From Nitrospiria bacterium (GTDB lineage: Bacteria > Nitrospirota > Nitrospiria > JACQBZ01), in NCBI GenBank assembly GCA_035498035.1, contig DATKAN010000047.1, forward strand, positions 1 through 38,435: a DNA stretch of 38,435 bases, given 5' to 3'. Below the pieces are notes generated by a model that was given only the letters and a program-made list of their open reading frames with translations, had not been told where the DNA came from and did no database searches. Within the stretch, counting starts at the first letter, position 1; each line of letters starts with the position of its first letter. This document shows positions 7,766 through 33,850 of this stretch, piece after piece. The position numbers were made by a program, and so were the translations under genes.

Positions 7766-10941
<3,176 letters not shown>

Positions 10942-20399: not shown

Positions 20400-21098
20400 A
20401 TGAAGGCCACCGTTCTCATTATTGATGACGACGCCAAGCTGAACCAACTGCTGGTCGATTTTCTCGGAGATTATGGATTCAACGTTCTCACGGCCGCCCG
20501 TCCCGATGAGGGATTGAGGAAACTCAAGCAACAGGTGCCGGATCTGATCATCCTGGACGTCATGCTTCCCGGAATGAGCGGTTTTGAGGTTTGCAAATTG
20601 ATCCGTCGGTCCTATACGGTTCCGATCATTATGTTGACGGCGAGGGGCCTGGTGACCGATAAGATCGTGGGTTTGGAGCTGGGGGCGGACGATTATCTTC
20701 CAAAACCTTTTGAGCCGCGAGAATTGGTGGCGCGTATTCAGTCCGTTCTCCGCCGGGCTCGGGGGGGGGACGAACCTTCCGTCAAAAAATTCGGGAGGTT
20801 GGAGGTCGACTTTTCCAAACGGAGCGCGAAGCTGGACGGGGCCCTCGTTGATCTGACAACGAACGAGTTTGCCGCATTGGCGTTGATGGTCAAAAACAGC
20901 GGCAAGGTGTTGAACCGGGACCAGATCCTGCAGGAGTTGCGGGGGATGGAGTATGACGCGTTCAATCGTTCCGTCGACATCACAATGAGCCGGTTGCGCC
21001 ACAAATTGCGGGACGATCCCAAAAACCCTTCCTTCATCAAGACCGTGTGGGGAACGGGCTACGTCTTTATCGCAGGTGAGGAACCCGATGGGGAATAA
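20400..21098 (+). CDS. OmpR-family response regulator (CpxR-like)
   Basis: A 232-residue regulator. The receiver domain (1-118) has the acidic pocket Asp9-Asp10-Asp11, phospho-acceptor Asp53 in ILDVMLPGMSG, Thr80 and Lys102 in LPKPFEP. The C-terminal winged helix (about 132-228) has VDLTTNEFAAL, NRSVDITMSRLRHKL and the terminal wing TVWGTGYVF. Its stop lies inside the start of the sensor kinase gene (overlap of 11 bases). Resemblance to CpxR, plus a CpxA-like kinase and a Spy/CpxP homologue 2.5 kb downstream, supports a role in envelope stress. Confidence 0.93.
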   Translation: MKATVLIIDDDAKLNQLLVDFLGDYGFNVLTAARPDEGLRKLKQQVPDLIILDVMLPGMSGFEVCKLIRRSYTVPIIMLTARGLVTDKIVGLELGADDYLPKPFEPRELVARIQSVLRRARGGDEPSVKKFGRLEVDFSKRSAKLDGALVDLTTNEFAALALMVKNSGKVLNRDQILQELRGMEYDAFNRSVDITMSRLRHKLRDDPKNPSFIKTVWGTGYVFIAGEEPDGE

Positions 21099-22413
21099 CT
21101 GGATCACAATGATTTTCCATTCGATTTTTACCAAGCTGCTGCTCGTCCTGATCGTTGCCGGCATCTGCATCAACCTCTCGGTGACCTCCTTCATCCGGCA
21201 CGAGCACGCAACGAACGAGCCGGCCATGCGCAATTCCATCATCAATCATCTGAACTACATCGTTAAAGATCTTGGCGATCCTCCCGACCCGGAACGGGCC
21301 CGGGAAATCGCCCGAGAGGCGTTGATCCAGATCCGTTATCAGAGCCCGGATCTGAACTGGTCCACTTCAGAGACCCTCTCCCTCTCTCCTCAGATGAAGT
21401 TGCGACCGTCGCGGAAGCGCCCGAATGTTCTGATCGGAGAGGACCGCGGCCGCCATATCTTTGTGATGGAGGACCGCGGGGGGCGCTTCATTTTTGAATT
21501 GGGCCACGAGTTCAATTGGACGGCCGTAAACGTAGAGGCTGTCGGCCGTTTGATCGCCCTGCTGACGGCGATTCTCGCCGGGACCTATATTCTCATCCGG
21601 AGAATTTTGAACCCCGTCAAGGCGCTCACCGAGGGTGTCAGAGCCGTGAGTCGCGGAAACCTCGATCACCGCGTTCAGCTCCGGCGTTCCGACGAGCTGG
21701 GAGAATTGGCCGGTGCCTTCAACGCCATGACGGAGCGGCTGCGAAACATGCTCCGGGCGAAGGAGCAGCTGCTGCTGGACGTGAGCCATGAATTGCGTTC
21801 TCCGTTGACGCGGATGAAGGTCGCGTTGGAATCCCTGTCCGAAGGTTCCGCGAAGAAAAGCATACGGGAGGACGTGGAAGAAATGGAGAAGATGGTGACC
21901 GAGGTTCTCATGACGGCCCGTTCGCACTTCACCCACGGCCAGCTCAATCTCCAGCCGGTCAATCTGATTGACCTTATCAGGGGGGTGGCCTCGGTCTTCG
22001 AGGGCCGTCTCCCCCGCATTCGGATGGGCGACATGCCGGACCGCGTTGAGCTGAATTTGGACGCCGCCCGGGTTAAAACGATGCTGAAAAATGTGTTGGA
22101 TAATGCCGTGAAATACTCGTTCAACTCCAGTCGACCCGTGGAAATTTCGATGGAGCGCCGCGGAGCCTATTGGACGATCCATATACGGGATAATGGCGTC
22201 GGAATTCCGGAAGATGAGCTCCCGTACATCTTTGAGCCCTTTTACCGCGTCGATAAATCACGTTCCAAAGACACCGGGGGGTATGGATTGGGGCTGAGCC
22301 TGTGCAAGACCGTGATGGAGGCACACCAGGGAAAGATCGAGGTGGAGAGCGCCCCGGACCGGGGCACCACCGTTTCCCTGTTCTTCCCCGTCAACAATCA
22401 TACGGGGTCTTAG
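21088..22413 (+). CDS. sensor histidine kinase (CpxA-like)
   Basis: A 441-residue inner-membrane kinase. Transmembrane helix 1 is at about 14-35, a periplasmic sensor at about 36-148, transmembrane helix 2 at about 150-172, HAMP at about 171-224, the dimerisation/phosphoacceptor domain with His234 in DVSHELRSPLTRMK, then the ATPase with NVLDNAVKYS, DNGVGIP, FEPFYRVD and GYGLGLSL. ATG 21088 is preceded by AGGTGAGG at six bases; GTG 21076 is a weaker alternative. Overlap with the regulator gene implies coupled expression of a cognate pair. The periplasmic sensor is short and acts presumably on envelope damage. Confidence 0.93.
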   Translation: MGNNWITMIFHSIFTKLLLVLIVAGICINLSVTSFIRHEHATNEPAMRNSIINHLNYIVKDLGDPPDPERAREIAREALIQIRYQSPDLNWSTSETLSLSPQMKLRPSRKRPNVLIGEDRGRHIFVMEDRGGRFIFELGHEFNWTAVNVEAVGRLIALLTAILAGTYILIRRILNPVKALTEGVRAVSRGNLDHRVQLRRSDELGELAGAFNAMTERLRNMLRAKEQLLLDVSHELRSPLTRMKVALESLSEGSAKKSIREDVEEMEKMVTEVLMTARSHFTHGQLNLQPVNLIDLIRGVASVFEGRLPRIRMGDMPDRVELNLDAARVKTMLKNVLDNAVKYSFNSSRPVEISMERRGAYWTIHIRDNGVGIPEDELPYIFEPFYRVDKSRSKDTGGYGLGLSLCKTVMEAHQGKIEVESAPDRGTTVSLFFPVNNHTGS

Positions 22414-22441
22414 GCTTACTGGGGGAAAGGAGCGTAAATCA

Positions 22442-22843
22442 GTGGAGCGAATCATCATGGTCCGAGATCCATTCGGGATGGGAAACTTTAGGAGCCCGGC
22501 CCCCGCTTATCTGGTCTTGATCAGCACGGCAAGAGAACTGACGTGCGAAGATTTGTTGGAGCTTATCGAGACAACAGGAAATTACGGTGCGAAGGTGCAT
22601 ATCGCTCTTGAATCATGGCAAATCGTGGTCGAGGTAGCCGCAGCCTGCCATCAACGGGTTCGGGAGGCGATCTGGCACTTGGGCCATTACTGCGTTAGTT
22701 TCTTGGAAAAGATCGATCGGATACCCACATTTTTGGTCGCGGAAGATGGAAATAATGGAAAGGCGTCGAGCGCTGTCCTGAACGACAATGAAAGGAGAGG
22801 ACTTCGATGGGTGCAAGAGTCGGATTCTCGGCTGAACGTATGA
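22442..22843 (+). CDS. hypothetical protein after the sensor kinase
   Basis: A 133-residue soluble protein with no signal peptide, membrane helix or family I recognise. It begins GTG 22442 after AAAGGAG (nine bases); ATG 22457 in the same frame is possible. Residues about 22-105 look like an alpha/beta unit (YLVLISTARELTCEDLLELI, then IVVEVAAACHQRVREAIWHL), followed by a polar tail. It contains three Cys. It starts 28 bases after the kinase stop and its end overlaps the zinc-ribbon gene by 37 bases in another frame, so it is probably in the same transcript. Base composition is less GC-rich than its neighbours, which may indicate later acquisition. Confidence 0.6.
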   Translation: MERIIMVRDPFGMGNFRSPAPAYLVLISTARELTCEDLLELIETTGNYGAKVHIALESWQIVVEVAAACHQRVREAIWHLGHYCVSFLEKIDRIPTFLVAEDGNNGKASSAVLNDNERRGLRWVQESDSRLNV

Positions 22844-23061
22844 AAGTGACCCATGACCCTTTTGAAAATGGGTTCCGTGGCGCCTTGATCTGCTCGCGAT
22901 GCGGAGGATTCATGGTGGTGGAATCTTGTTACGATTTCAATGTTCTACGGTGTGTGCAGTGCGGAGACCTTGTGGATCCGGTTATTCTCAGAAACCGTCA
23001 ACACGGCTCGCCCGAAATGCGAAAGATGAACGGGCTGAGCCAGCCCAGGAAGGCCGCTTAG
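22807..23061 (+). CDS. small zinc-ribbon protein
   Basis: An 84-residue protein with two Cys pairs, Cys29-x2-Cys32 (LICSRCGG) and Cys49-x2-Cys52 (RCVQCGD), plus Cys41 between them: a typical zinc-ribbon arrangement. No other domain is visible. AAAGGAGAGG nine bases before ATG 22807 is a strong ribosome site even though it lies inside the previous reading frame. Such small ribbons bind nucleic acid or protein partners; no specific function can be given. It belongs to the cluster between the CpxRA-like pair and the Spy-like gene. Confidence 0.65.
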   Translation: MGARVGFSAERMKVTHDPFENGFRGALICSRCGGFMVVESCYDFNVLRCVQCGDLVDPVILRNRQHGSPEMRKMNGLSQPRKAA

Positions 23062-23656
23062 GAGTTCGATGAAAAACGACGTCCTGAGATGGAAACCTTC
23101 CGCTGCGTTGCTCAGACGCTGGTGAATCGGGCCGTCGGCGATTTGCCTGCTTTAGGGCGCGGTACCGCTGGCCAATTGTGTCGGCGAGGGCACCGAGCTC
23201 CGCGGTCCACTGCAGTGGCACCAAGAATCCGGCGCAGCGTCTATGCGGAACAGGCCCAGGCGTCTGACCCGGTCCAGGTCGACAGCACCATCGTTCAAGT
23301 GGGGCCGCCTGGCCCTTCCAGAAGCCCTCGTTGAAATCAAAGTGACGGCTCAGGTTGAGAGGCCTGAAGCCGATTCTACCGAGTCATCCAGTGAGCTCGA
23401 TGGCCGGAGGGGTGGCGGTGGCCGACGGGGTCGGGACGGCGGGTTCCCTCCCTTTTAACGGACATGACTATGACCGGCCTCTTAAACTGATCAAGGCAGG
23501 TAACGGCGGTTTTAGGTCGTTCATACCGGAGGGTGGGAATCGGATACTGATCGGGGGGCCGCTTTCTTTTCAATCCGTGATATTGAAAAAAATCAGAAGA
23601 AATGAAGGCCGGTGAGAACAGCCTCTGATGTTCTCAATGCATAGGAGGAAATCAAA
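23062..23656 (+). other. region of about 580 bases without a convincing gene; inverted repeats near its end
   Basis: Several short frames (for example 23089-23334, 23243-23458 and 23355-23615) overlap each other, look compositionally biased and resemble nothing I know; none has a good ribosome site. It could be a decayed gene or a long untranslated region. Near its right end are a perfect eight-base inverted repeat TTTTCAAT/ATTGAAAA (23567-23589, seven-base spacer) and a seven-base one TGAGAAC/GTTCTCA (23613-23636, ten-base loop). Both precede the Spy-like gene and may control it. Confidence 0.4.
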
Positions 23657-24235
23657 ATGTCAAATCCAACCGGGACAAATGGTTTTCGGTTATTTCGGAT
23701 GCTCGTCCTCGGGGGCCTGATGGTCGGGGGGGTCGGTCTGGTAACCGTTGTTCGTGCCGATTCAGACCCGGGTCCAAGGGCCATGACGGGTCGCCACTGT
23801 GATGGGCACCGCGGAGGCATGCGCGACATGGTCGGTCACGCACTGCACGGGTTGATTCGGTCCCAGAAGGAACTCGGTTTGTCGGCGGAGCAGGTATCGA
23901 GGATCAAGGCCATCGCGCTCGGGCACGAGAAGGATCGCATCCGGGAAAAAGCGGACATGAAGCTGGCCGAGGTGGATGTCCGGGCGGACGTCTTCAACGA
24001 GAAGGTTGAACTGCCGACCATTGAGGAGGCTTTGAAGAAGTCCGAAAGCGCCCGTACGGCCTTGCGTCTCGAGGGCGTGAAGGCCCTGCGTTCGGCGTCA
24101 GCGGTTCTGACGCCGGACCAGCGTGAGAAATGGCGGGAGGGGATGGGGTCGAGACACGAAGCGGGGGTCGGGCGAAGGGGGTACGGCCACGGACCCATGG
24201 CGAACCCTCAAGATCGGCCCGAAAAAGAAGGCTGA
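23657..24235 (+). CDS. Spy/CpxP-family periplasmic protein
   Basis: A 192-residue exported protein. A signal peptide (hydrophobic core MLVLGGLMVGGVGLVTVV, cleavage near VRA-DS at about 34) leads into an all-helical domain with the two family LT/LS-x2-Q motifs LSAEQ (75-79) and LTPDQREKW (151-159). The mature N-terminus is His-rich (GRHCDGHRGGMRD) and the C-terminus is Gly/His/Arg-rich, which may bind metal. The ribosome site AGGAGG eight bases before the ATG is strong. Spy is an ATP-independent chaperone and CpxP a feedback inhibitor of CpxA; either could fit with the CpxRA-like pair upstream. Confidence 0.85.
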   Translation: MSNPTGTNGFRLFRMLVLGGLMVGGVGLVTVVRADSDPGPRAMTGRHCDGHRGGMRDMVGHALHGLIRSQKELGLSAEQVSRIKAIALGHEKDRIREKADMKLAEVDVRADVFNEKVELPTIEEALKKSESARTALRLEGVKALRSASAVLTPDQREKWREGMGSRHEAGVGRRGYGHGPMANPQDRPEKEG

Positions 24236-24263
24236 TTGTCGAGAAGGGGTGGGAACTTGATCG

Positions 24264-24284
24264 GGGGCGGCGGTACGCCGCCCC
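24264..24284. other. very stable GC hairpin after the Spy-like gene
   Basis: GGGGCGGCG (24264-24272) and CGCCGCCCC (24276-24284) form a perfect nine-pair stem with a GTA loop, 28 bases after the stop codon. No T-tract follows on either strand, so it is a transcript-end stabiliser or REP-like element rather than a standard terminator. Confidence 0.45.
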
Positions 24285-24332
24285 TGGCGCAGGGAGGGAT
24301 TTCATGGACCCTTCGGAGCGGGCTGAATGTAT

Positions 24333-24362
24333 TTGACAACGGGGACGGTGATCCACTATATT
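24333..24362 (+). promoter_or_regulatory. promoter for the marR-efflux operon
   Basis: TTGACA (24333-24338), 18 bases, TATATT (24357-24362), giving a start near 24369 and a leader of about 30 nt. Just downstream is an AT-rich inverted repeat TTAG-ATAAG-CTAA (24362-24374), in the position of a MarR-type operator. Confidence 0.65.
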
Positions 24363-24400
24363 TAGATAAGCTAATAATTAATTCAACATACCACTCGGAA

Positions 24401-24865
24401 ATGATGGCGGTTCGATCGACAGACGAGCGTTGCGCCCGGGAAATCATGGAAGCAGTTCCCGTTGTAATGCGCTTCATCCGGAACGAGATGCGGCGGCAGG
24501 GGTCCTTGTTTCTCTCGGTTCCCCAATTGCGAACGTTGGTCTATCTCGATCGTTTTCCGGGAACCGATCTCTCCGGGGTCGCAGACCATCTGGGCGTCAC
24601 CCCGCCCACGGCGTCCGCGGTTGTAAAACGTCTGGTGGACCAAGGTCTGGTCAAACGTGAAGCGCATCCTCGGAAGCGCCGCCATGTGGTGCTTACCCTG
24701 ACGCGAAGCGGCTCCCGGCGCTACCGACACGTCCGCGGAGCGGCGTGCACGTCTGTGAGGACCGCCCTGGCCGATCGATCCGCTCCGGAATTGCGAAAAA
24801 TCACGGAAGGGATCGTTCTGCTTGGGAAGGTTTTTAAAGGGGTTGTCACACGTGAAGATCGTTAA
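24401..24865 (+). CDS. MarR-family transcriptional regulator
   Basis: A 154-residue winged-helix regulator: SVPQLRTLVYLDRFPG, the recognition region DLSGVADHLGVTPPTASAVV and the wing KREAHPRKRRHVVLTLT are typical of MarR. Dimerisation helices lie at both ends. ATG 24401 is the start after the promoter; a weak GGAA lies in front. Seven bases later begins an RND pump operon, so the natural inference is a ligand-released repressor of its own operon, possibly via the AT-rich repeat near 24362-24374. The ligand cannot be deduced. Confidence 0.9.
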   Translation: MMAVRSTDERCAREIMEAVPVVMRFIRNEMRRQGSLFLSVPQLRTLVYLDRFPGTDLSGVADHLGVTPPTASAVVKRLVDQGLVKREAHPRKRRHVVLTLTRSGSRRYRHVRGAACTSVRTALADRSAPELRKITEGIVLLGKVFKGVVTREDR

Positions 24866-24872
24866 AAGGAAC

Positions 24873-26105
24873 ATGACGGGGGGGGGAGTAAGATGCCATG
24901 TTGGGATCCCTCCGATATTCGCCTTGTCTCGAGGTTTCGGTCCGCGTTCGTTGAAAACGGCGGCGGTGTTTTGGGCGGGCCTGGCCTTCCTCTCGGCCTG
25001 CTCCGGGGAGTCGGCCGGACAAAGCCCGAAAAAGGATTCCAAGGGGGTCCCCGCCGTTCCGATCCTTGTAAGCGCCGTCGTCCAAAAGCCCATGCCCGTC
25101 CAACTACACGCCATCGGGAACGTGCAGGCCTATTCCACGGTCATCGTCAAAAGCCTCGTCGAAGGAACGCTGACGGAGGCCTATTTCAAGGAGGGCCAGG
25201 AGGTCAGGAAAGGGGATCTCCTCTTTAAGATTGATCCGCGCCCCTTCGAGGTGCAGCTCAAGCAGGCCGAGGCAAATCTGGCGCGAGACCTTGCGCAATC
25301 CGAAAACGCCCGGCAGGAAGCCAATCGCTATCAGGACCTTCTTCAAAAACAATACGTCAGTCAGGAACAGTACGAACAACTTCGCGCCACCGCGACAGCC
25401 TATGAAGGCACCGTGCTCGCGGACCAAGCCGCCATCGACCAAGCCAAGCTTCAACTCGAATACTGTTCGATCCGCTCGCCCATTGACGGGGTCGCCGGGA
25501 CGTTGCTGGTCTACCCGGGAAATCTTGTCAAGGTGAACGACCCCGACCATCCCCTGGTGACGATCAATCAAATTCATCCGATCTATGTGGCCTTTTCGGT
25601 TCCCGAGAAGAATCTATCGGAAATCCGGGAATATCAGGCGCACGGTCCGTTAAACGTGGAAGCGACGATTCCCCACAGTCCGGTGACTCCGGCGAGAGGC
25701 CGACTGACGTTTGTGGACAACACCGTCAACGACACGACCGGCACGATTCAACTTAAAGCGCTCTTCCCGAACGAGGGGAAAAAGCTCTGGCCGGGTCAGT
25801 TCGTGAACGTGGTTTTGATTTTGACGACACAGCGCGATGCGATTGTGGTGCCATCCCAGGCCGTTCAGACGGGACAGCAGGGTTCATACGTGTTCGTCGT
25901 CAAATCCGACCGGACGGTGGAATCCCGTCCGGTTGTCGTGGCTCGGGAAGTGGGCGGTGAATCCGTGATCGAGCGGGGTTTGTCCTCCGGCGAGCAGGTG
26001 GTGACGGACGGTCAGCTCCGGCTCGCTTCGGGAACGAGGGTCGAGATTAAATCCGTCGCCCCGACCGCCGCCGATCCGGAAGAGGGGTCGGATAAAAACC
26101 CATGA
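24873..26105 (+). CDS. RND efflux adaptor (membrane fusion protein), lipoprotein type
   Basis: About 410 residues. A lipobox LSAC follows the hydrophobic AAVFWAGLAFL, so the protein is probably acylated and anchored in the periplasm. Then a barrel-sandwich hybrid domain (VKSLVEGTLTEAYFKEGQEVRKGD), a coiled-coil hairpin (LARDLAQSENARQEANRYQDLL), the second lipoyl half (IRSPIDGVAGTLLVYPG) and beta-barrel segments. It bridges the pump and the outer-membrane factor. The start is uncertain: ATG 24873 and GTG 24852 both give a long pre-lipobox segment, and a run of nine G (24878-24886) lies just after them. Its stop overlaps the pump gene (ATGA). Confidence 0.92.
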   Translation: MTGGGVRCHVGIPPIFALSRGFGPRSLKTAAVFWAGLAFLSACSGESAGQSPKKDSKGVPAVPILVSAVVQKPMPVQLHAIGNVQAYSTVIVKSLVEGTLTEAYFKEGQEVRKGDLLFKIDPRPFEVQLKQAEANLARDLAQSENARQEANRYQDLLQKQYVSQEQYEQLRATATAYEGTVLADQAAIDQAKLQLEYCSIRSPIDGVAGTLLVYPGNLVKVNDPDHPLVTINQIHPIYVAFSVPEKNLSEIREYQAHGPLNVEATIPHSPVTPARGRLTFVDNTVNDTTGTIQLKALFPNEGKKLWPGQFVNVVLILTTQRDAIVVPSQAVQTGQQGSYVFVVKSDRTVESRPVVVAREVGGESVIERGLSSGEQVVTDGQLRLASGTRVEIKSVAPTAADPEEGSDKNP

Positions 26106-29100
26106 GCATTCCTGAACTGTTCATCCGTCGGCCGATCATGACCACCCTCGTGATGTCGGCCATCCTGCTCTTCGGCATCGTGAGCTATAGCCTGCTCCCC
26201 GTGAGTCAGCTCCCCAACGTCGATTTTCCGACGATACAGGTTTCGGCGAGTCTTCCGGGCGCCAGCGCCGATACGATGGCCTCCTCCGTGGCCACGCCCC
26301 TCGAGCGCCAGTTCTCGACGATTGCCGGCATCGACTCGATGACCTCGACCAGCGCGCTGGGGGTCACCCAGATCACCCTTCAGTTCAGCCTGGATCGGAA
26401 CATCGACGCCGGGGCGCAGGACGTCCAGTCGGCCATCGCAGCCGCGGCGAAGAACCTGCCCCCTGGAATGCCGACGCCCCCGACCTATCAGAAGGTCAAT
26501 CCGGCCGAGCAACCCATTCTGTTCCTGGCGTTGAGCTCGGCGAGCCTTCCCCTATCGACCGTCGACGAATACGCCGAGACTCTGATGGCGCAGCGCATCT
26601 CCATGATCAACGGCGTGGCGCAGGTCCAGGTCTTCGGCGCGCAGAAGTATGCCGTGAGGGTCCAGCTCGATCCCGATGCCCTGGCCTCCCGCGGCATCGG
26701 CATCGATGAGGTCGAGAAGGCCTTGGAACAGGGCAACGTAAACATACCGACGGGAACCCTCTATGGAACCCATCAAGCCTTTACCGTTCAGGCCACCGGC
26801 CAATTGACCGATGCGTCCGCTTATCGCCGTCTCATCGTGGCCTATCGCAACGGTTCTCCGGTCCGTCTGGAGGAGTTGGGTCGAATAATCGACAGCGTAC
26901 AGACCGACAAGGTGGCCAGCTGGCATGATTCGACCCGCGCGATCGTCCTGGCCATTCAGCGCCAGCCGGGCACCAACACGATCGAGGTGGTGAACGCGAT
27001 CAAGAAGCTGCTCCCGACCTTCCGAATCCAGATGCCGGCCGCCGTGGATCTGGCCATTCTCTACGACCGTTCGGAGTCGATCCGGGAGTCGGTCCACGAC
27101 GTCCAGTTTACGCTGCTTCTGGCGGTCGGCCTGGTGGTCCTGGTGATTTTCCTTTTTTTGAGAAATCTCTCGGCCACCGTGATCCCCAGCCTGGCGCTCC
27201 CCATGTCGCTCATCGGGACCTTTACCGTCATGTACCTGTTGGGCTACAGCATCGACAATCTTTCCCTCCTGGCCATGATCCTGTGCGTCGGATTCGTCGT
27301 GGATGATGCCATCGTCGTGCTGGAGAACATCGTGCGGCATATGGAAAAGGGCAAGGGCGCGCTTGCGGCGGCGCTGGACGGCTCGGCCGAAATCGGCTTC
27401 ACCATCCTGTCGATGACCCTCTCGCTGGCGGCGGTCTTTATCCCAGTTCTTCTCATGGGCGGGGTTCTTGGACGGCTCCTTCATGAATTCGCCGTGACGA
27501 TTACGTCGGCGGTCCTTGTTTCCGGCTTCGTCTCCCTGACGCTTACGCCGATGCTTTGCAGTCGTTTTCTGCGCCCCCCGGACCATCGGAAACACGGCCG
27601 GCTGTATAATTTATCGGAGCGTTTTTTCGAGGGCATTTTAAGGCGTTATGAGAGAAGCCTTAAGCGATTTTTGAACTTTCGCCGGGCCATGATGGTATTG
27701 TTCATCCTTCTCCTTATCGCGACGGGATATCTTTTTTCCGCCATGCCCAAAGGATTCATCCCGACCGAAGACGTCGGCATGATTTTTGGGTTCACCCAGG
27801 CTTCGGACGACATTTCATTCGATTCCATGAGGGAACATCAACAGGCGGTGGCGGCGATCCTCCGGCAGGATCCCGCCGTCAAGTCGTTTATGTCCTCCAT
27901 CGGCGCGGGCGGCCCGAATGCCACGTTGAATACCGGAAGGGTGTTCGTCCTCCTCAAACCGCCCTCGGAGCGGCCGAGCTCGGAGGCAGTGATCCAGCGT
28001 TTGCGGCCCAAGTTGATGGCGGTTCCGGGGATGACCGTCTTTTTGCAGGACCTGCCGATCATTCGCATCGGGGGAAAGTTGACGAAGAGCCAGTACCAGT
28101 ATACGCTGCAGGACGCGGATACGGACGAACTCTATCACTGGGCCTCCGTTCTGGAGGACAAAATGGGCCTGTTGCCGGGTTTTCAGGATGTGACCACCGA
28201 TCTGGAAATCCGAAATCCCCAGGTGGTTGTCGATATTGACCGGGATCGGGCCTCCGCGTTGGGGGTCACGGCGGATCAGATCGAAAACGCCTTGTACGAC
28301 GCGTACGGGGAAAGGCAGGTTTCAACGATCTACACGCCCACCAACCAGTACTGGGTGATCATGGAACTGGAACCTCAGTACCAACGGGATCCCGCGGCGG
28401 TTTCCAAACTCTACATCCGCTCCGCGAACGGACCTTTGGTTCCGCTGGGCGCCGTGGCGAGACTGACGCAGGGGGTCGGTCCCCTGACCGTGTCCCATCT
28501 CGGACAGCTTCCGGCCGTTACCATTTCGTTCAACCTTCAACCCGGCGTCTCACTCAGCGATGCCGTGGCCCGCGTCGAAAAACTTGAACACGAACTGCGT
28601 CTCCCCGTAACGCTCAGCGCAAGCTTTCAAGGAACGGCTCAGGCGTTTCAGTCCTCGCTTCAGGGGCTTTGGCTTCTCTTGCTTCTGGCCGTTCTGGTGA
28701 TTTACATCGTGCTGGGGATTCTCTATGAAAGCTTTGCGCATCCGCTGACGATTCTTTCGGGTCTTCCCTCCGCCGCCTTCGGCGCGCTGCTGACCTTGCT
28801 CATCTTCCGTACGGAGCTCAACGTCTACGGCTTCGTCGGACTTCTGATGCTTCTGGGCATCGTGAAGAAGAACGCCATCATGATGATCGATTTTGCCCTC
28901 GAAGCCCAGCGCAAAGAGGGAAAAAGCCCGCTGGATGCGATCGTCGAAGGGTGCCTGATCCGGTTCCGGCCGATCATGATGACCACGATGGCGGCCTTCA
29001 TGGGAACCCTGCCGATCGCGCTCGGATTGGGCGCGGGGGCCGGGGCCCGCCGCCCGCTGGGTCTCACGGTCGTGGGCGGGCTGATGGTCTCTCAACTGGT

Positions 29101-29257
29101 GACTTTATACATTACTCCGGTGATTTACCTATATCTGGAATCGCTCCAGGAACGTCTGAGCGGCAGACGAAGGCGCCGTCCGCCCGCGTTACGGGAACAG
29201 CTCGCGGATGGGAAATCCCTGGAGACACGGACGTCGGAACCCACGATGGTGAAATAA
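26102..29257 (+). CDS. RND multidrug efflux pump, HAE1 type (MdtB/MdtC-like)
   Basis: A 1051-residue inner-membrane proton antiporter with the standard twelve-helix plan. The start MSIPELFIRRPIMTTLVM, the periplasmic PN1/PN2 region (LPGASADTMASSVATPLERQ), transmembrane segment 4 with the paired Asp for proton relay in GFVVDDAIVVLENI (about residue 400), the second half with PKGFIPTEDVG, and LGIVKKNAIMMIDFAL in transmembrane segment 10 are all present. The charge pattern is that of drug exporters (HAE1) rather than metal exporters. ATG overlaps the adaptor stop by four bases. It should use the outer-membrane factor encoded 23 bases downstream. Confidence 0.96.
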   Translation: MSIPELFIRRPIMTTLVMSAILLFGIVSYSLLPVSQLPNVDFPTIQVSASLPGASADTMASSVATPLERQFSTIAGIDSMTSTSALGVTQITLQFSLDRNIDAGAQDVQSAIAAAAKNLPPGMPTPPTYQKVNPAEQPILFLALSSASLPLSTVDEYAETLMAQRISMINGVAQVQVFGAQKYAVRVQLDPDALASRGIGIDEVEKALEQGNVNIPTGTLYGTHQAFTVQATGQLTDASAYRRLIVAYRNGSPVRLEELGRIIDSVQTDKVASWHDSTRAIVLAIQRQPGTNTIEVVNAIKKLLPTFRIQMPAAVDLAILYDRSESIRESVHDVQFTLLLAVGLVVLVIFLFLRNLSATVIPSLALPMSLIGTFTVMYLLGYSIDNLSLLAMILCVGFVVDDAIVVLENIVRHMEKGKGALAAALDGSAEIGFTILSMTLSLAAVFIPVLLMGGVLGRLLHEFAVTITSAVLVSGFVSLTLTPMLCSRFLRPPDHRKHGRLYNLSERFFEGILRRYERSLKRFLNFRRAMMVLFILLLIATGYLFSAMPKGFIPTEDVGMIFGFTQASDDISFDSMREHQQAVAAILRQDPAVKSFMSSIGAGGPNATLNTGRVFVLLKPPSERPSSEAVIQRLRPKLMAVPGMTVFLQDLPIIRIGGKLTKSQYQYTLQDADTDELYHWASVLEDKMGLLPGFQDVTTDLEIRNPQVVVDIDRDRASALGVTADQIENALYDAYGERQVSTIYTPTNQYWVIMELEPQYQRDPAAVSKLYIRSANGPLVPLGAVARLTQGVGPLTVSHLGQLPAVTISFNLQPGVSLSDAVARVEKLEHELRLPVTLSASFQGTAQAFQSSLQGLWLLLLLAVLVIYIVLGILYESFAHPLTILSGLPSAAFGALLTLLIFRTELNVYGFVGLLMLLGIVKKNAIMMIDFALEAQRKEGKSPLDAIVEGCLIRFRPIMMTTMAAFMGTLPIALGLGAGAGARRPLGLTVVGGLMVSQLVTLYITPVIYLYLESLQERLSGRRRRRPPALREQLADGKSLETRTSEPTMVK

Positions 29258-29279: not shown

Positions 29280-30620
29280 ATGGATCTCAAATATGGCCGA
29301 TTGAACGTTTTGCTGTTTCTGATCCCCATGTTGCTGAATGCATCCGACGGGTTTGCGGAGGAGCCCGCCACGGCCGCCGATCGTTTGACGCTTCAAGAGG
29401 CCGTTGATACCGCGCTCGGTCATCATCCCAGCCTTCAGGCGGCGCGGGGAGCGCTGCAGATCCAAGAGGCCCTGATCGGGGAAGCTCGTTCGAATTATTT
29501 CCCCCAACTGAACCTCCAGACCACCTACACGCGGGCGACGGGAAACACCTCCACCAGTGTCCAGTCCAGCCAGGCCCTGGCAATACCCCGTCAAACTCCG
29601 AAACCCTCCAACACGTCCTTTAACAATTACGCGGCCACCCTGACACTCCAGCAACGGATCTTCGATTTCGGGAAATCCATCGCCGACGTGGAATCGGCCC
29701 GCGAATCGATGCAGGGAAGCGACTTGAGCGAGATGGCCTCCCGACAGATTGTGGCCATGAATGTCAAGGTGGCCTACTTTGGACTTTTACAGGCCCGGCG
29801 TCTGGTCCAGGTCCAAGAGGAAACGGTCAAACAGTTTAAAGAGCATCTCGATCAGGCGGAAGGATTCTTCCGGGCGGGTACCCGCACGCGCTACGATGTT
29901 ACAACGGCGGAGGTAAATCTCACCAATGCGAAACTCGAATTGATCAAGGCCAGAAATGCCGAGGTGGTGGCCCGCGTCACACTGGCCAATGCCATGGGCG
30001 TCCCGGATCGGCCGATCGGGGAGATGGAAGATCTGCTGACCTTTAAAAGGGTCGAGATCTCCGAGGCCCAGGCCATCGATGAAGCCCTTGCAAACCGACC
30101 GGATCTGTTGTCCCTGGCCGCGCAGCGTCGCGCGGCCGACGCGACGATTCGCTCCGCACGCCGGACTTATTACCCGGTTCTCGACGGTGTGGCGGATTAC
30201 ACGTGGCGCGGCCAGGACTATCCGTTGGTCTGGAATTGGGATGTGGGACTGACGCTGACGTTCCCATTATTTTCAGGCTACCTGACCCAATCCCAGGTCG
30301 CGGCGGCCCGGGCCAATATGATTGTGGCCGATTCCAATGAAGAGGGGCTAAGACAGAATGTGATCCTTGAGGTCCACCAGGTATTTTCTAATCTTATGGA
30401 GGCCGATGAGCGGGTACAAACCTCCGATGTCGTCGTTCGCCAGGCCGAAGAAAACCTTGATCTGGCGAACGGCCGATTTCAGGCCGGCGTGGGGACAACC
30501 GTGGAACAAACCGATGCCCAGGTGCTGTTGACAAACGCCAAGACCTCCCAGGTTCAGGCCCTGTATGACTACCGTGTGGCCGAATCCCAGTTGCAGAAGG
30601 CGATGGGTCGAAAATATTAA
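29280..30620 (+). CDS. TolC-family outer-membrane efflux protein
   Basis: A 446-residue outer-membrane channel. A signal peptide (VLLFLIPMLLNASDGFA, cleavage near 26) leads into two repeated TolC domains: LTLQEAVDTALGHHPSLQAA and ARSNYFPQLNLQTTYT in the first, RRTYYPVLDGVADYT and TLTFPLFSGYLTQSQVAAARA in the second, with long helical coiled-coil stretches between. GAGGTAATCGC before ATG 29280 is a good ribosome site. It is the only outer-membrane factor in the window and lies between the RND pump and the MacAB pump, so it may serve both. Confidence 0.93.
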   Translation: MDLKYGRLNVLLFLIPMLLNASDGFAEEPATAADRLTLQEAVDTALGHHPSLQAARGALQIQEALIGEARSNYFPQLNLQTTYTRATGNTSTSVQSSQALAIPRQTPKPSNTSFNNYAATLTLQQRIFDFGKSIADVESARESMQGSDLSEMASRQIVAMNVKVAYFGLLQARRLVQVQEETVKQFKEHLDQAEGFFRAGTRTRYDVTTAEVNLTNAKLELIKARNAEVVARVTLANAMGVPDRPIGEMEDLLTFKRVEISEAQAIDEALANRPDLLSLAAQRRAADATIRSARRTYYPVLDGVADYTWRGQDYPLVWNWDVGLTLTFPLFSGYLTQSQVAAARANMIVADSNEEGLRQNVILEVHQVFSNLMEADERVQTSDVVVRQAEENLDLANGRFQAGVGTTVEQTDAQVLLTNAKTSQVQALYDYRVAESQLQKAMGRKY

Positions 30621-30658
30621 TTTGAAATTTAATGTTTACTGTATAAGGCATTAATAAT

Positions 30659-31843
30659 ATGATTTTTATAAAAAATAAATGGTTCCTGATCGCGGCCCTC
30701 CTGATCCTTGTTGGAATCGGAGTTTTTTTCTTCCGGAGCGATCAAACGGTCGCGCAGTATAAAACCAAAACGGTGAAAGAGGGGGAAATCACGGCGACCG
30801 TTTCGGCGACCGGAAAGGTCAACGCGGTTGTGACCGTTCAAGTGGGAAGCCAGGTTTCCGGGACGATTCAACGGCTCTTCGCCGATTTCAACTCCCGTGT
30901 CAGGAAGGGACAGATTGTTGCCCAGATCGACCCCGCTCTTTTTGAGGCCCAGGTCGAACAAGCCCGCGCGAAGCTGGCGAACGACGAGGCCAACCAGGAA
31001 AAGGCACGGGTGGTCGTGGTTGATGCCAAACGCAACCTCGGTCGGATGGAGGAACTCCTTTCCAAGAACTTGGTCGCCCAGAGCGACAAGGATACGACTC
31101 AGACGGCGTATGACTCCGCCCTGGCCGAACTGAAGGCCGCCGAGGCGCAGGTTTTACAAGACCAGGCCTCTCTCAAGTTGGCCGAGACGAACCTCCGTTA
31201 CACGACGATCCGATCGCCGGTCGATGGGATCGTCATATCCCGAAACGTGGACGTGGGCCAGACCGTGGCCGCTTCCCTTCAGGCTCCGACCCTATTTACC
31301 ATCGCCCAGGATCTGACCGAAATGCAGGTCGACACCAGCGTCGACGAGGCCGACATCGGAAAGGTCCGGCTGGGTCAGGAGGCGGAGTTCACCGTGGATT
31401 CCTATCCCACGAGCCCCTTTCATGGAACGGTCCACGACATCTACAACCAACCGCTGGTGGTTCAGAACGTCGTCACTTATGACGCCATCATCCGGGTTAA
31501 AAATCCGGATCTCAAGCTCAAACCGGGTATGACCGCCAATATCACGATCAAAGTCGGTCATCGGGATCGTGCCGTCAAAATCCCTAATTCCGCGCTTCGT
31601 TACAGTCCCGAAAAAACTTCCGGGAACGAGGGCCCGTCCGATGCGGGAAAGGCCGACGCGGCCAAGGTCTGGGTCCTGGCGAACGGCAAGGCGGTCGGGG
31701 TTCCGGTGACCCTGGGGCTGAACGACGGAAGTTATACCGAGGTGGTTTCCGGGGCGTTGAAGCCCGGCGATGAAGTCATTATCGAGAAAATCCAACAGAA
31801 TGAGTCCCAGAGCGGGAAAAGACCGCCGTTCATGCGGTTTTGA
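30659..31843 (+). CDS. macA: MacA-like periplasmic adaptor of an ABC efflux pump
   Basis: A 394-residue adaptor with one N-terminal membrane anchor (WFLIAALLILVGIGVFFF), a lipoyl/barrel-sandwich domain (VGSQVSGTIQRLFADFNSRV), a long coiled-coil hairpin (about 95-175), IRSPVDGIVISRNVDVGQTV, and a C-terminal beta-barrel ending in KRPPFMRF. The membrane anchor, the length and the adjacent ATPase and permease match MacA of macrolide or peptide exporters. It starts 38 AT-rich bases after the outer-membrane factor gene and 28 bases before the ATPase. Substrate unknown. Confidence 0.88.
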   Translation: MIFIKNKWFLIAALLILVGIGVFFFRSDQTVAQYKTKTVKEGEITATVSATGKVNAVVTVQVGSQVSGTIQRLFADFNSRVRKGQIVAQIDPALFEAQVEQARAKLANDEANQEKARVVVVDAKRNLGRMEELLSKNLVAQSDKDTTQTAYDSALAELKAAEAQVLQDQASLKLAETNLRYTTIRSPVDGIVISRNVDVGQTVAASLQAPTLFTIAQDLTEMQVDTSVDEADIGKVRLGQEAEFTVDSYPTSPFHGTVHDIYNQPLVVQNVVTYDAIIRVKNPDLKLKPGMTANITIKVGHRDRAVKIPNSALRYSPEKTSGNEGPSDAGKADAAKVWVLANGKAVGVPVTLGLNDGSYTEVVSGALKPGDEVIIEKIQQNESQSGKRPPFMRF

Positions 31844-31871
31844 TTCATAGAAACTCGCCGGGATATAAAAA

Positions 31872-32636
31872 ATGACGCAGCCGTTGATCCAAATCGAGAA
31901 TTTGTGGAAAATTTATCAGACCGGTGAGATTGAGTTGGCCGCTCTGAAAGGGGTTACCCTTTCCATTACGCAAGGGGAGTTTATCGCCATCATGGGGCCG
32001 TCCGGTTCCGGGAAATCAACCATGATGCACATCCTGGGCTGTTTGGACCGGCCGACCCGGGGGCGTTATCTATTAGACGGAGTGGACGTGGGAGGTCTTA
32101 GCCCCAACGATCGGGCACGGATCCGCAACCACAAGATTGGATTCGTATTTCAGGGATTTAATCTCCTGCACCGGACGACCGCCATCGAGAACGTGGAGCT
32201 ACCGATTCTCTATGACGGCTTGTCGGGCCGCGAGCGGGCCGCGAAGGCCGGAGAAGCGCTGGAAAGGGTCGGTTTGGGAGACCGACGATACCACTACCCA
32301 AACCAGCTCTCCGGAGGCCAGCAGCAGCGGGTGGCGATCGCCCGGGCGCTTGTCATGCAGCCGCCTTTGATCCTGGCGGATGAGCCGACCGGCAACCTGG
32401 ATACCCGGACGTCGATCGAGATCATGGCCCTCTTTCAGGAATTGAATCGGGAGGAAATCACACTTCTTGTGGTGACTCATGAACCGGACATCGCCCGTTA
32501 TGCCCGGCGAATTATAAATTTTCGGGATGGGACCGTCCGCTCGGATCAGTCGGTCGCCGATCATGTCGATGCGCGAGAGGCTTTATCAAAAGAGCGGGTT
32601 GAGTCTTCACCGGAGAGCGAGAGGAAGGCTCCATGA
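31872..32636 (+). CDS. macB: MacB-type ABC transporter ATP-binding protein
   Basis: A 254-residue ATPase of the LolD/MacB group: Walker [10 protein letters not shown], the Q-loop FQGFNLL, signature [15 protein letters not shown], Walker [16 protein letters not shown] and switch histidine VVTHEP. The N-terminal 220 residues are the nucleotide-binding domain; the polar tail ([21 protein letters not shown]) has no known role. In Escherichia coli the ATPase and permease are one polypeptide; here they are separate genes with a four-base overlap (ATGA). It drives a mechanotransmission pump with MacA and the permease. Confidence 0.92.
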
Positions 32637-33850
32637 ACTTCCTCATGATTTTCAAAATCGCGGGAAGGGCACTGGCCCGCAATACCATGAGATCTGTCCT
32701 CACCATGCTGGGGATCATCATCGGTGTTGCGGCCGTGATCGCCATGGTGGCGGTGGGGCAGGGCGCTAAAGCGCAAATCGAGTCCCAGATCGCCAGCATC
32801 GGGTCCAACCTTCTGATGGTTTTTCCGGGCAGCACGACCCAGGGAGGGGTTCACGCCGGTTCCGGCTCGGTGACCACCCTGACGGAGGACGACGCGTTTG
32901 CGATTCAGAAAGAGCTGGGTTCGGTTCGATTTGCCGCACCGTCGCTTCGAACCGTGGCCCAGGTGGTGAGCGCGAACCAGAACTGGTCCACGGCCGTCAC
33001 GGGAAGTACGCCGGACTATTTCACAGTCCGCGATTGGTCGTTCGAGTCCGGGGGCTCCTTTACCCAATCGGATTATGACGGGGCGACGAAAGTGGCGGTG
33101 GTCGGCAAGACGGTGGCCACCAACCTGTTTGGCTCCCAGGACCCGATGGGTCAGATCATCCGGATCCAAAGCGTTCCGTTCAAGATCGTCGGGGTTCTTT
33201 CGCCGAAAGGCCAATCGGCGATGGGACAGGATCAGGACGACACCGTGATCATCCCCCTCTCAACCCTCCAGAAACGGATCATGGGCGTGACCTACGTTCA
33301 GGCCATTATGGTTTCGGCCAACTCTCCCGAGGAAACCGTCACGGCGGAACAGGAAATCCGTCTGCTGCTCCACCAAAGACATCACATCCCCCCCAAACAA
33401 GACGACGACTTCACCGTCCGGAATATGACCGATATCGCGGCCGCCGCCGAGGCGTCCTCTCAGATTATGACGCTGCTCCTGGGAAGCATCGCATCGGTCT
33501 CCCTGATTGTCGGGGGCATCGGGATCATGAACATCATGCTGGTTTCGGTCACCGAACGAACGCGGGAAATCGGCATCCGGATGGCGGTCGGGGCGAAGAG
33601 TCGGGATATTCTTTTTCAGTTTCTCGTGGAGGCGGTGGTTCTTTCGTTGGCGGGGGGAGTCCTTGGCGTGATCCTGGGGGTGGCCTGTTCCCGTGTCATT
33701 TCGGCCTTCGTTCATTGGCCGACGATCATATCGCTGAGTTCGATCATGCTGGCCTCCGCCTTCTCGATTGCGATCGGCGTCTTTTTCGGTTTGTACCCCG
33801 CACGACGGGCGGCCTCATTGGATCCCATCGAGGCCCTTCGGTATGAATAA
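32633..33850 (+). CDS. macB: MacB-type ABC transporter permease
   Basis: A 405-residue FtsX-like permease: transmembrane helix 1 with the family segment LTMLGIIIGVAAVIAMVAVG, a periplasmic MacB core domain (about 50-265), and three C-terminal helices with GGIGIMNIMLVSVTERTREI and VGAKSRDILFQFL, ending YPARRAASLDPIEALRYE, the typical C-terminus. Together with the ATPase it equals one MacB. Four-helix topology with a large periplasmic domain supports transport of substrates from the periplasm through the outer-membrane factor. Confidence 0.93.
   Translation: MNFLMIFKIAGRALARNTMRSVLTMLGIIIGVAAVIAMVAVGQGAKAQIESQIASIGSNLLMVFPGSTTQGGVHAGSGSVTTLTEDDAFAIQKELGSVRFAAPSLRTVAQVVSANQNWSTAVTGSTPDYFTVRDWSFESGGSFTQSDYDGATKVAVVGKTVATNLFGSQDPMGQIIRIQSVPFKIVGVLSPKGQSAMGQDQDDTVIIPLSTLQKRIMGVTYVQAIMVSANSPEETVTAEQEIRLLLHQRHHIPPKQDDDFTVRNMTDIAAAAEASSQIMTLLLGSIASVSLIVGGIGIMNIMLVSVTERTREIGIRMAVGAKSRDILFQFLVEAVVLSLAGGVLGVILGVACSRVISAFVHWPTIISLSSIMLASAFSIAIGVFFGLYPARRAASLDPIEALRYE

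Follow-up and report, generated by a model that had tools for sequence, protein, structure and literature searches.

Two small overlapping genes lie between a two-component system and a gene for a Spy-type exported protein in a Nitrospiria genome, and both are genuine genes under purifying selection. They encode a 133-residue protein and an 84-residue zinc ribbon, and the most likely reading is that the two products modulate the two-component system as accessory proteins. Of more general reach than the pair is the zinc-ribbon family with its links to regulators. The stretch of DNA that was analysed, hereafter the window, is 38,435 nucleotides long and corresponds to one contig (C47) of a 2.67 Mb genome that is 99% complete. 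Its features are listed in Table 1.

Table 1. Features of the window, with coordinates, strand and the basis of each assignment.
Feature	Position	Strand	Basis
OmpR-family response regulator (receiver and winged helix)	20400..21098	+	Pfam Response_reg and Trans_reg_C above cut-off; 81% identical G001 orthologue
Sensor histidine kinase (N-terminal TM, periplasmic domain, second TM, HAMP, HisKA, HATPase)	21076..22413	+	Pfam; hydrophobic stretches
133-residue protein, predicted cytosolic, putative ferredoxin-like core at ~residues 20-90	22442..22843	+	GTG start; homologues; structure model
84-residue putative zinc ribbon, CxxC-x16-CxxC, 28-residue N-terminal extension before the first Cys	22807..23061	+	ATG start; 37-bp overlap with the preceding gene; motif
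Stub of an RND membrane-fusion-protein (MFP) gene, intact in G001	23069..23141	+	Nucleotide alignments; codon 19 (23123-23125) is a stop in frame, no similarity beyond ~23140
Spy/LTXXQ-type (Metal_resist) exported protein	23657..24235	+	PF13801 E 1.9e-8 above cut-off, LTXXQ below; hydrophobic N-terminus
MarR-family regulator (ORF extent; start probably later)	24236..24865	+	Pfam MarR_2 above cut-off
RND membrane-fusion protein (ORF extent; start probably later)	24822..26105	+	HlyD_D23, HlyD_3
RND efflux pump subunit	26102..29257	+	~50% identity with a Manganitrophus protein matching Pfam ACR_tran
Outer membrane efflux protein	29280..30620	+	Pfam OEP

Conservation and selection at the locus

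We used a genome from the window's genus (G001) as the reference for gene order, overlap, identity and dN/dS. There the response regulator, the kinase, the 133-residue protein and the zinc ribbon follow each other as in the window, with protein identities of 81, 79, 72 and 73%, respectively, and the overlap of the two small genes has the same length. The nucleotide identity ranged between 69 and 88% per 100 bp from position 20444 to ~23140 and was at background level beyond. Shine-Dalgarno-like sequences precede both small ORFs, GGAAAGGAG at 22424-22432 for the 133-residue protein and GAAAGGAGAGG at 22790-22800 for the zinc ribbon. An earlier reading of the sequence alone had described two overlapping coding ORFs with ribosome sites, and the comparison agrees with it.

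The dN/dS ratios between the window and G001 (bootstrap ranges in brackets) were 0.13 (0.08-0.20) for the response regulator, 0.11 (0.08-0.16) for the kinase and 0.27 (0.13-0.56) for the zinc ribbon. For the gene of the 133-residue protein we observed 0.48 (0.29-0.74) over its whole length and 0.23 (0.13-0.47) for the core alone. Because none of the 300 replicates reached a ratio of 1 for any of these, we regard both small ORFs as genes under purifying selection, the 133-residue protein being more loosely constrained outside its core. The dS of its gene was 0.39 compared to 1.18 for the kinase, despite a similar nucleotide identity. The two genes had also been described as less GC-rich than their surroundings. 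This is correct within the window (52.1% for the first gene and 53.6% for the second, against 58.3%), but the difference is slight and nothing unusual, because the response regulator reaches only 55.0% and the G001 orthologues show 54.7% and 59.5%, respectively.

The zinc ribbon of G001 has an MFP gene (HlyD_D23/HlyD_3) a few bases downstream, and behind it the first part of an RND pump gene. An unrelated stretch of 0.5 kb separates the MFP stub of the window from the Spy-type gene, whose product meets Pfam Metal_resist and stays below the cut-off of the Spy chaperone model NCBIfam PRK10455 (16.8 bits against 174). Positions 29280-33850 hold a further export set, in which the outer membrane efflux protein is followed by an HlyD-type adaptor and MacB-type-looking ABC genes (ABC assigned by eye).

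Structure, distribution and neighbours of the two families

Neither protein has a hydrophobic stretch above 1.6, and both are thus predicted to be cytosolic and to lack a membrane segment, in line with the location proposed earlier. No Pfam or NCBIfam model reached its cut-off for either of them, and those listed as matching their relatives did so weakly, so both families are unnamed. The label "orphan" has to be dropped, since distant homologues of both proteins occur elsewhere.

For the 133-residue protein the fold had been called unknown. A model of the core (89 residues, three-row alignment) showed the order beta-alpha-beta-beta-alpha-beta with a pLDDT of 76.4 and a pTM of 0.68; the whole protein folded poorly from its single sequence (pLDDT 44.5). 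Searching with the core model, Foldseek returned generic ferredoxin-like matches, none of them with E <0.001. The best match by VIA-align was an F420-dependent sulfite reductase (Z 9.5, rmsd 2.0 Å over 66 residues), closely followed by YebC (9.4), a homoserine kinase (9.3) and LarC (8.8). The structure prediction thus supports a ferredoxin-like fold class, and we assign no specific family because unrelated families tie at Z 8-9.5 and the Foldseek matches are generic. Two candidate families were rejected. The stretch matched in the F420-dependent sulfite reductase is presumably its NIR_SIR_ferr half-domain (PF03460), which was suggested by the pattern LT-x-x-DLL...VHI...SWQ together with the top Z score. 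It is a lead only, lacking sequence support: PF03460 gave no listed match in 11 family members at E up to 10 (HMMER filters on) and hhalign returned a probability of 4%. As for an HMA metal carrier (PF00403), the protein has no CxxC and no listed Pfam match, and the similarity to CopA (E 0.02) is not significant.

The family of the 133-residue protein is rare. With a clean profile we detected it at 14 places in 10 of the 269 genomes of the class, of which the window's genome accounts for three places and G001 for two; one copy in another genome (G008) carries internal stops. Across a sample of the phylum 9 of 295 genomes gave a match at E up to 0.01; two of these, which are marginal and outside the class (E 0.005-0.006), were left out of the tally of homologues. 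The protein alone as a query against genome contigs found nothing, a narrower alignment found two Nitrospirota loci (a Nitrospirae bacterium and Candidatus Manganitrophus), and the phages and plasmids searched gave no match. Several copies adjoin regulatory genes. A paralogue on contig C9 of the window's genome comes after the genes of P-II and of a GAF/sigma-54 activator, and its G001 counterpart is followed by an AmtB gene as well. Another paralogue (contig C10) has an overlap with a CBS-domain gene that runs in the same direction, and the Manganitrophus-type copies of two genomes (G046 and G050) converge on an OmpR-type response regulator, labelled KdpE by eye. The copies in family f8 adjoin a globin gene.

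The 84-residue protein had been taken for a zinc ribbon, and its two CxxC pairs point to the same assignment. Eight family members share the invariant columns C29, C32, M36, C49, C52, G53, D57 and R64, and the protein of the window follows this pattern of CxxC...CxxCG with a subsequent D and R. The Pfam and NCBIfam matches listed for these eight members are all weak (best E 0.001). The family is multi-copy in Nitrospirota: all 40 relatives carry it with 2-19 copies each, the window's genome has nine, and with a stricter cut-off it was found in 62 of 100 genomes of a phylum sample.

This zinc-ribbon family often adjoins gene regulators. We studied 40 neighbourhoods, taken down the ranked family matches wherever the match lies ~10 kb or more into its contig; the sample excludes the window's genus as well as two neighbours of matches already taken, and it is not random and contains many orthologous pairs, so that a binomial value calculated on it does not stand for a real probability. 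The same-strand neighbour was a TetR-type gene in 9 cases and a sigma-54 activator in another 9, thus 18 of 40 together, as found with one query protein per regulator type, by which other regulators would escape. The TetR-type gene lies on the downstream side at one locus (L133). At L139 a MarR-type gene (Pfam MarR_2) is directly upstream of the zinc ribbon, and L164 has a response regulator as neighbour. The other 20 neighbourhoods showed varied genes, and the non-regulator neighbours of many zinc ribbons include RadC and Hsp20 among others (by eye). Counting as near what lies within 2.5 kb, we found eleven sigma-54 genes, two of which (L139 and L164) are not direct neighbours. The control consisted of 325 kb from the same fetched stretches at more than 5 kb from the zinc ribbons, and it contained no TetR and no sigma-54 gene; genes that did occur there were 5 for response regulators, 2 for kinases and 2 of the RND type. 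No homologue of the 133-residue protein occurred in the 40 neighbourhoods and therefore the two families are not obligate partners.

Pairs of a TetR-type gene and a zinc ribbon were observed in families f1, f3, f6, f7, f8 and f9. The order of sigma-54 activator, zinc ribbon and NuoF-like gene (NuoF by eye) is conserved in several families of the class (among L129-L168). A possible fusion was seen at L140, where the zinc ribbon lies within a 307-residue open frame on the minus strand (~9883-10806), which starts like a short-chain dehydrogenase and comes directly after a TetR-type gene.

The two-component circuit and the role of the pair

The kinase sensor region was found at 13 loci in 12 of the 269 genomes of the class Nitrospiria, and we read the neighbourhoods of all 13. 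The following counts are lower bounds, as some contigs end early (e.g. G421 with 6,996 bases). MFP or pump genes of the RND type are near seven loci (window, G001, G023, G423, G093, G442 and G443), and Spy/LTXXQ/Metal_resist genes are near nine (window, G015 C8, G325, G421, G093, G065, G263, G442 and G443), including the gene of G093, which is below the Pfam cut-off. A zinc ribbon is present at four loci (window, G001 and both loci of the distant genome G015) and the family of the 133-residue protein at two (window and G001). The pair adjoins the kinase in one genus only, in two of its three genomes. At the locus of G023, which belongs to the Manganitrophus genus, the kinase orthologue runs into MFP-RND-RND with neither small gene between.

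The two-component system had been called CpxRA-like, a label that fits its probable function and not its family. Its proteins scored 180.2 and 166.1 bits against the CpxR and CpxA equivalog models of NCBIfam (cut-offs 341 and 486), 187.9 bits against BaeR (380) and 170.6 and 163 bits against the two BaeS models (500 and 603), in all cases below the cut-off. We liken the pair to the Cpx and Bae circuits because its relatives adjoin the Spy/LTXXQ-type or MFP/RND genes counted above. This linkage suggests an envelope-stress-type circuit as a functional kind, which would presumably control those genes. The earlier proposal that the two small proteins are new components of such a circuit is borne out as far as they are co-located with it; they are not a conserved part, and at the kinase the pair is a lineage-specific add-on.

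A GTTAC-type direct repeat 5' of the regulator in the window and in G023 was considered as a regulator box and rejected, as the exact spacing pattern gave 0 matches in the window and was not found in front of the regulator elsewhere among the loci. At three f12-family loci (L123, L126 and L127) a gene for an outer-membrane-efflux-like lipoprotein (by eye) comes after the kinase, then an adaptor and an RND pump in divergent orientation, and therefore the type of the kinase-linked pump differs between families.

We tentatively favour the reading in which both small proteins are cytosolic accessory modulators of the two-component and efflux circuit. Within the genus the operon would run from the response regulator through the kinase, the 133-residue protein and the zinc ribbon to the RND adaptor and pump, with the small genes as distal genes of the two-component operon. 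The circuit would act as an envelope-stress-type switch for the Spy-type chaperone and RND efflux. Possible binding partners of both small proteins are the transcription machinery, the kinase and the response regulator, and through them the two may adjust the output to the pump; the zinc ribbon comes from a family that is repeatedly paired with different regulator types (TetR, sigma-54 activators and here a two-component system). We infer the binding from linkage; the direction of the effect and any metal or redox input are putative as well. Several observations argue for the modulators: gene order and the 37-bp overlap are kept in G001 under purifying selection, the zinc ribbon of G001 and the kinase of G023 run into RND export genes, the kinase loci often have Spy/LTXXQ-type (9 of 13) or MFP/RND genes (7 of 13) nearby, neither protein has a predicted membrane segment, and both the zinc ribbons (18/40) and the paralogues of the 133-residue protein (PII/sigma-54, CBS, KdpE-like) adjoin regulators. 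The reading is weakened by the confinement of the pair to one genus, most kinase relatives lacking it, by a dN/dS of the 133-residue protein several times that of the kinase, and by the fact that the families are not obligate partners and many zinc ribbons lie beside non-regulators.

The main rival is that two unrelated housekeeping-type small genes were inserted between kinase and pump and have no role in the circuit. It owes this rank to the restriction of the pair to a single genus at the kinase locus, and both the direct passage from kinase to pump in G023 and the looser constraint on the 133-residue protein agree with such hitch-hiking. A zinc-ribbon family with 2-19 members per genome could also land in many places. 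We nevertheless consider hitch-hiking somewhat less likely than the modulators: the overlapping co-directional layout is kept in both genomes that have the pair, zinc ribbons also occur at the two kinase loci of the distant G015, and the members of their family cluster with regulators.

Alternatively, both proteins could be stress effectors rather than regulators and buffer metal or protect cytosolic proteins as targets of the circuit. The nearby Spy-type and pump genes are effectors and ferredoxin-like folds include the HMA metal carriers, to which the weak CopA similarity would point. Given that this similarity falls short of significance, that the HMA CxxC motif is missing and that, more widely, both families occur in regulatory and not in metal-handling contexts, we find this explanation doubtful. 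Spurious ORFs are highly improbable, as the short zinc-ribbon ORF and the GTG start of the other gene are outweighed by conserved reading frames under selection, distant protein homologues and a confident core model.

The accessory modulators may be part of something broader. It is conceivable, if rather speculative, that the zinc ribbons of Nitrospirota are plug-in accessory subunits of unrelated transcription regulators (TetR, sigma-54, MarR and two-component systems), joined in this genus by a ferredoxin-like plug-in that also occurs next to PII/sigma-54 and KdpE-like regulators, which would provide the envelope-stress and efflux circuit with a cytosolic metal or redox input.

Comparison with known systems

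Envelope-stress circuits are known mostly from Proteobacteria. The locus offers a testable counterpart in Nitrospirota, within the class to which the manganese oxidiser Candidatus Manganitrophus belongs, and its links are to RND pumps and Spy-type proteins. It also draws attention to a zinc-ribbon family that is unnamed and numerous and that, being found time and again next to different regulators, may have a general accessory role. Among the papers listed in our literature search, none dealt with either family in Nitrospirota.

With the small zinc ribbons of the YgiT type, TIGR04104 and Zn_Ribbon_TF the 84-residue protein shares two CxxC pairs in a short protein, though the listed profile matches are weak. 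The predicted core of the 133-residue protein has the same beta-alpha-beta-beta-alpha-beta topology as the sulfite reductase half-domain, HMA, ACT and YebC, though the sequence link to PF03460 or PF00403 is not significant. MzrA (acting with EnvZ) and MgrB (with PhoQ) resemble the present case in that a small protein lies beside or acts on a two-component system. MzrA was among the generic fold matches of the core with a Z of 7.0, which is within the background (rmsd 2.2 over 65 residues). MzrA and MgrB are membrane proteins, whereas the 133-residue protein has no predicted membrane segment.

The closest parallels are BaeSR-mdtABC and CpxRA-CpxP/Spy. For Salmonella and E. coli the available part of PMC3160322 reports that spy and mdtA are both under the control of BaeR and CpxR. 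The window shares with these systems an OmpR-type regulator with a HAMP kinase and their linkage to both a Spy/LTXXQ-type protein and an RND pump. The pair of the window differs in scoring below the cut-offs for CpxR, CpxA, BaeR and BaeS, and the window carries in addition two small, putatively cytosolic genes that are not named in that part of PMC3160322.
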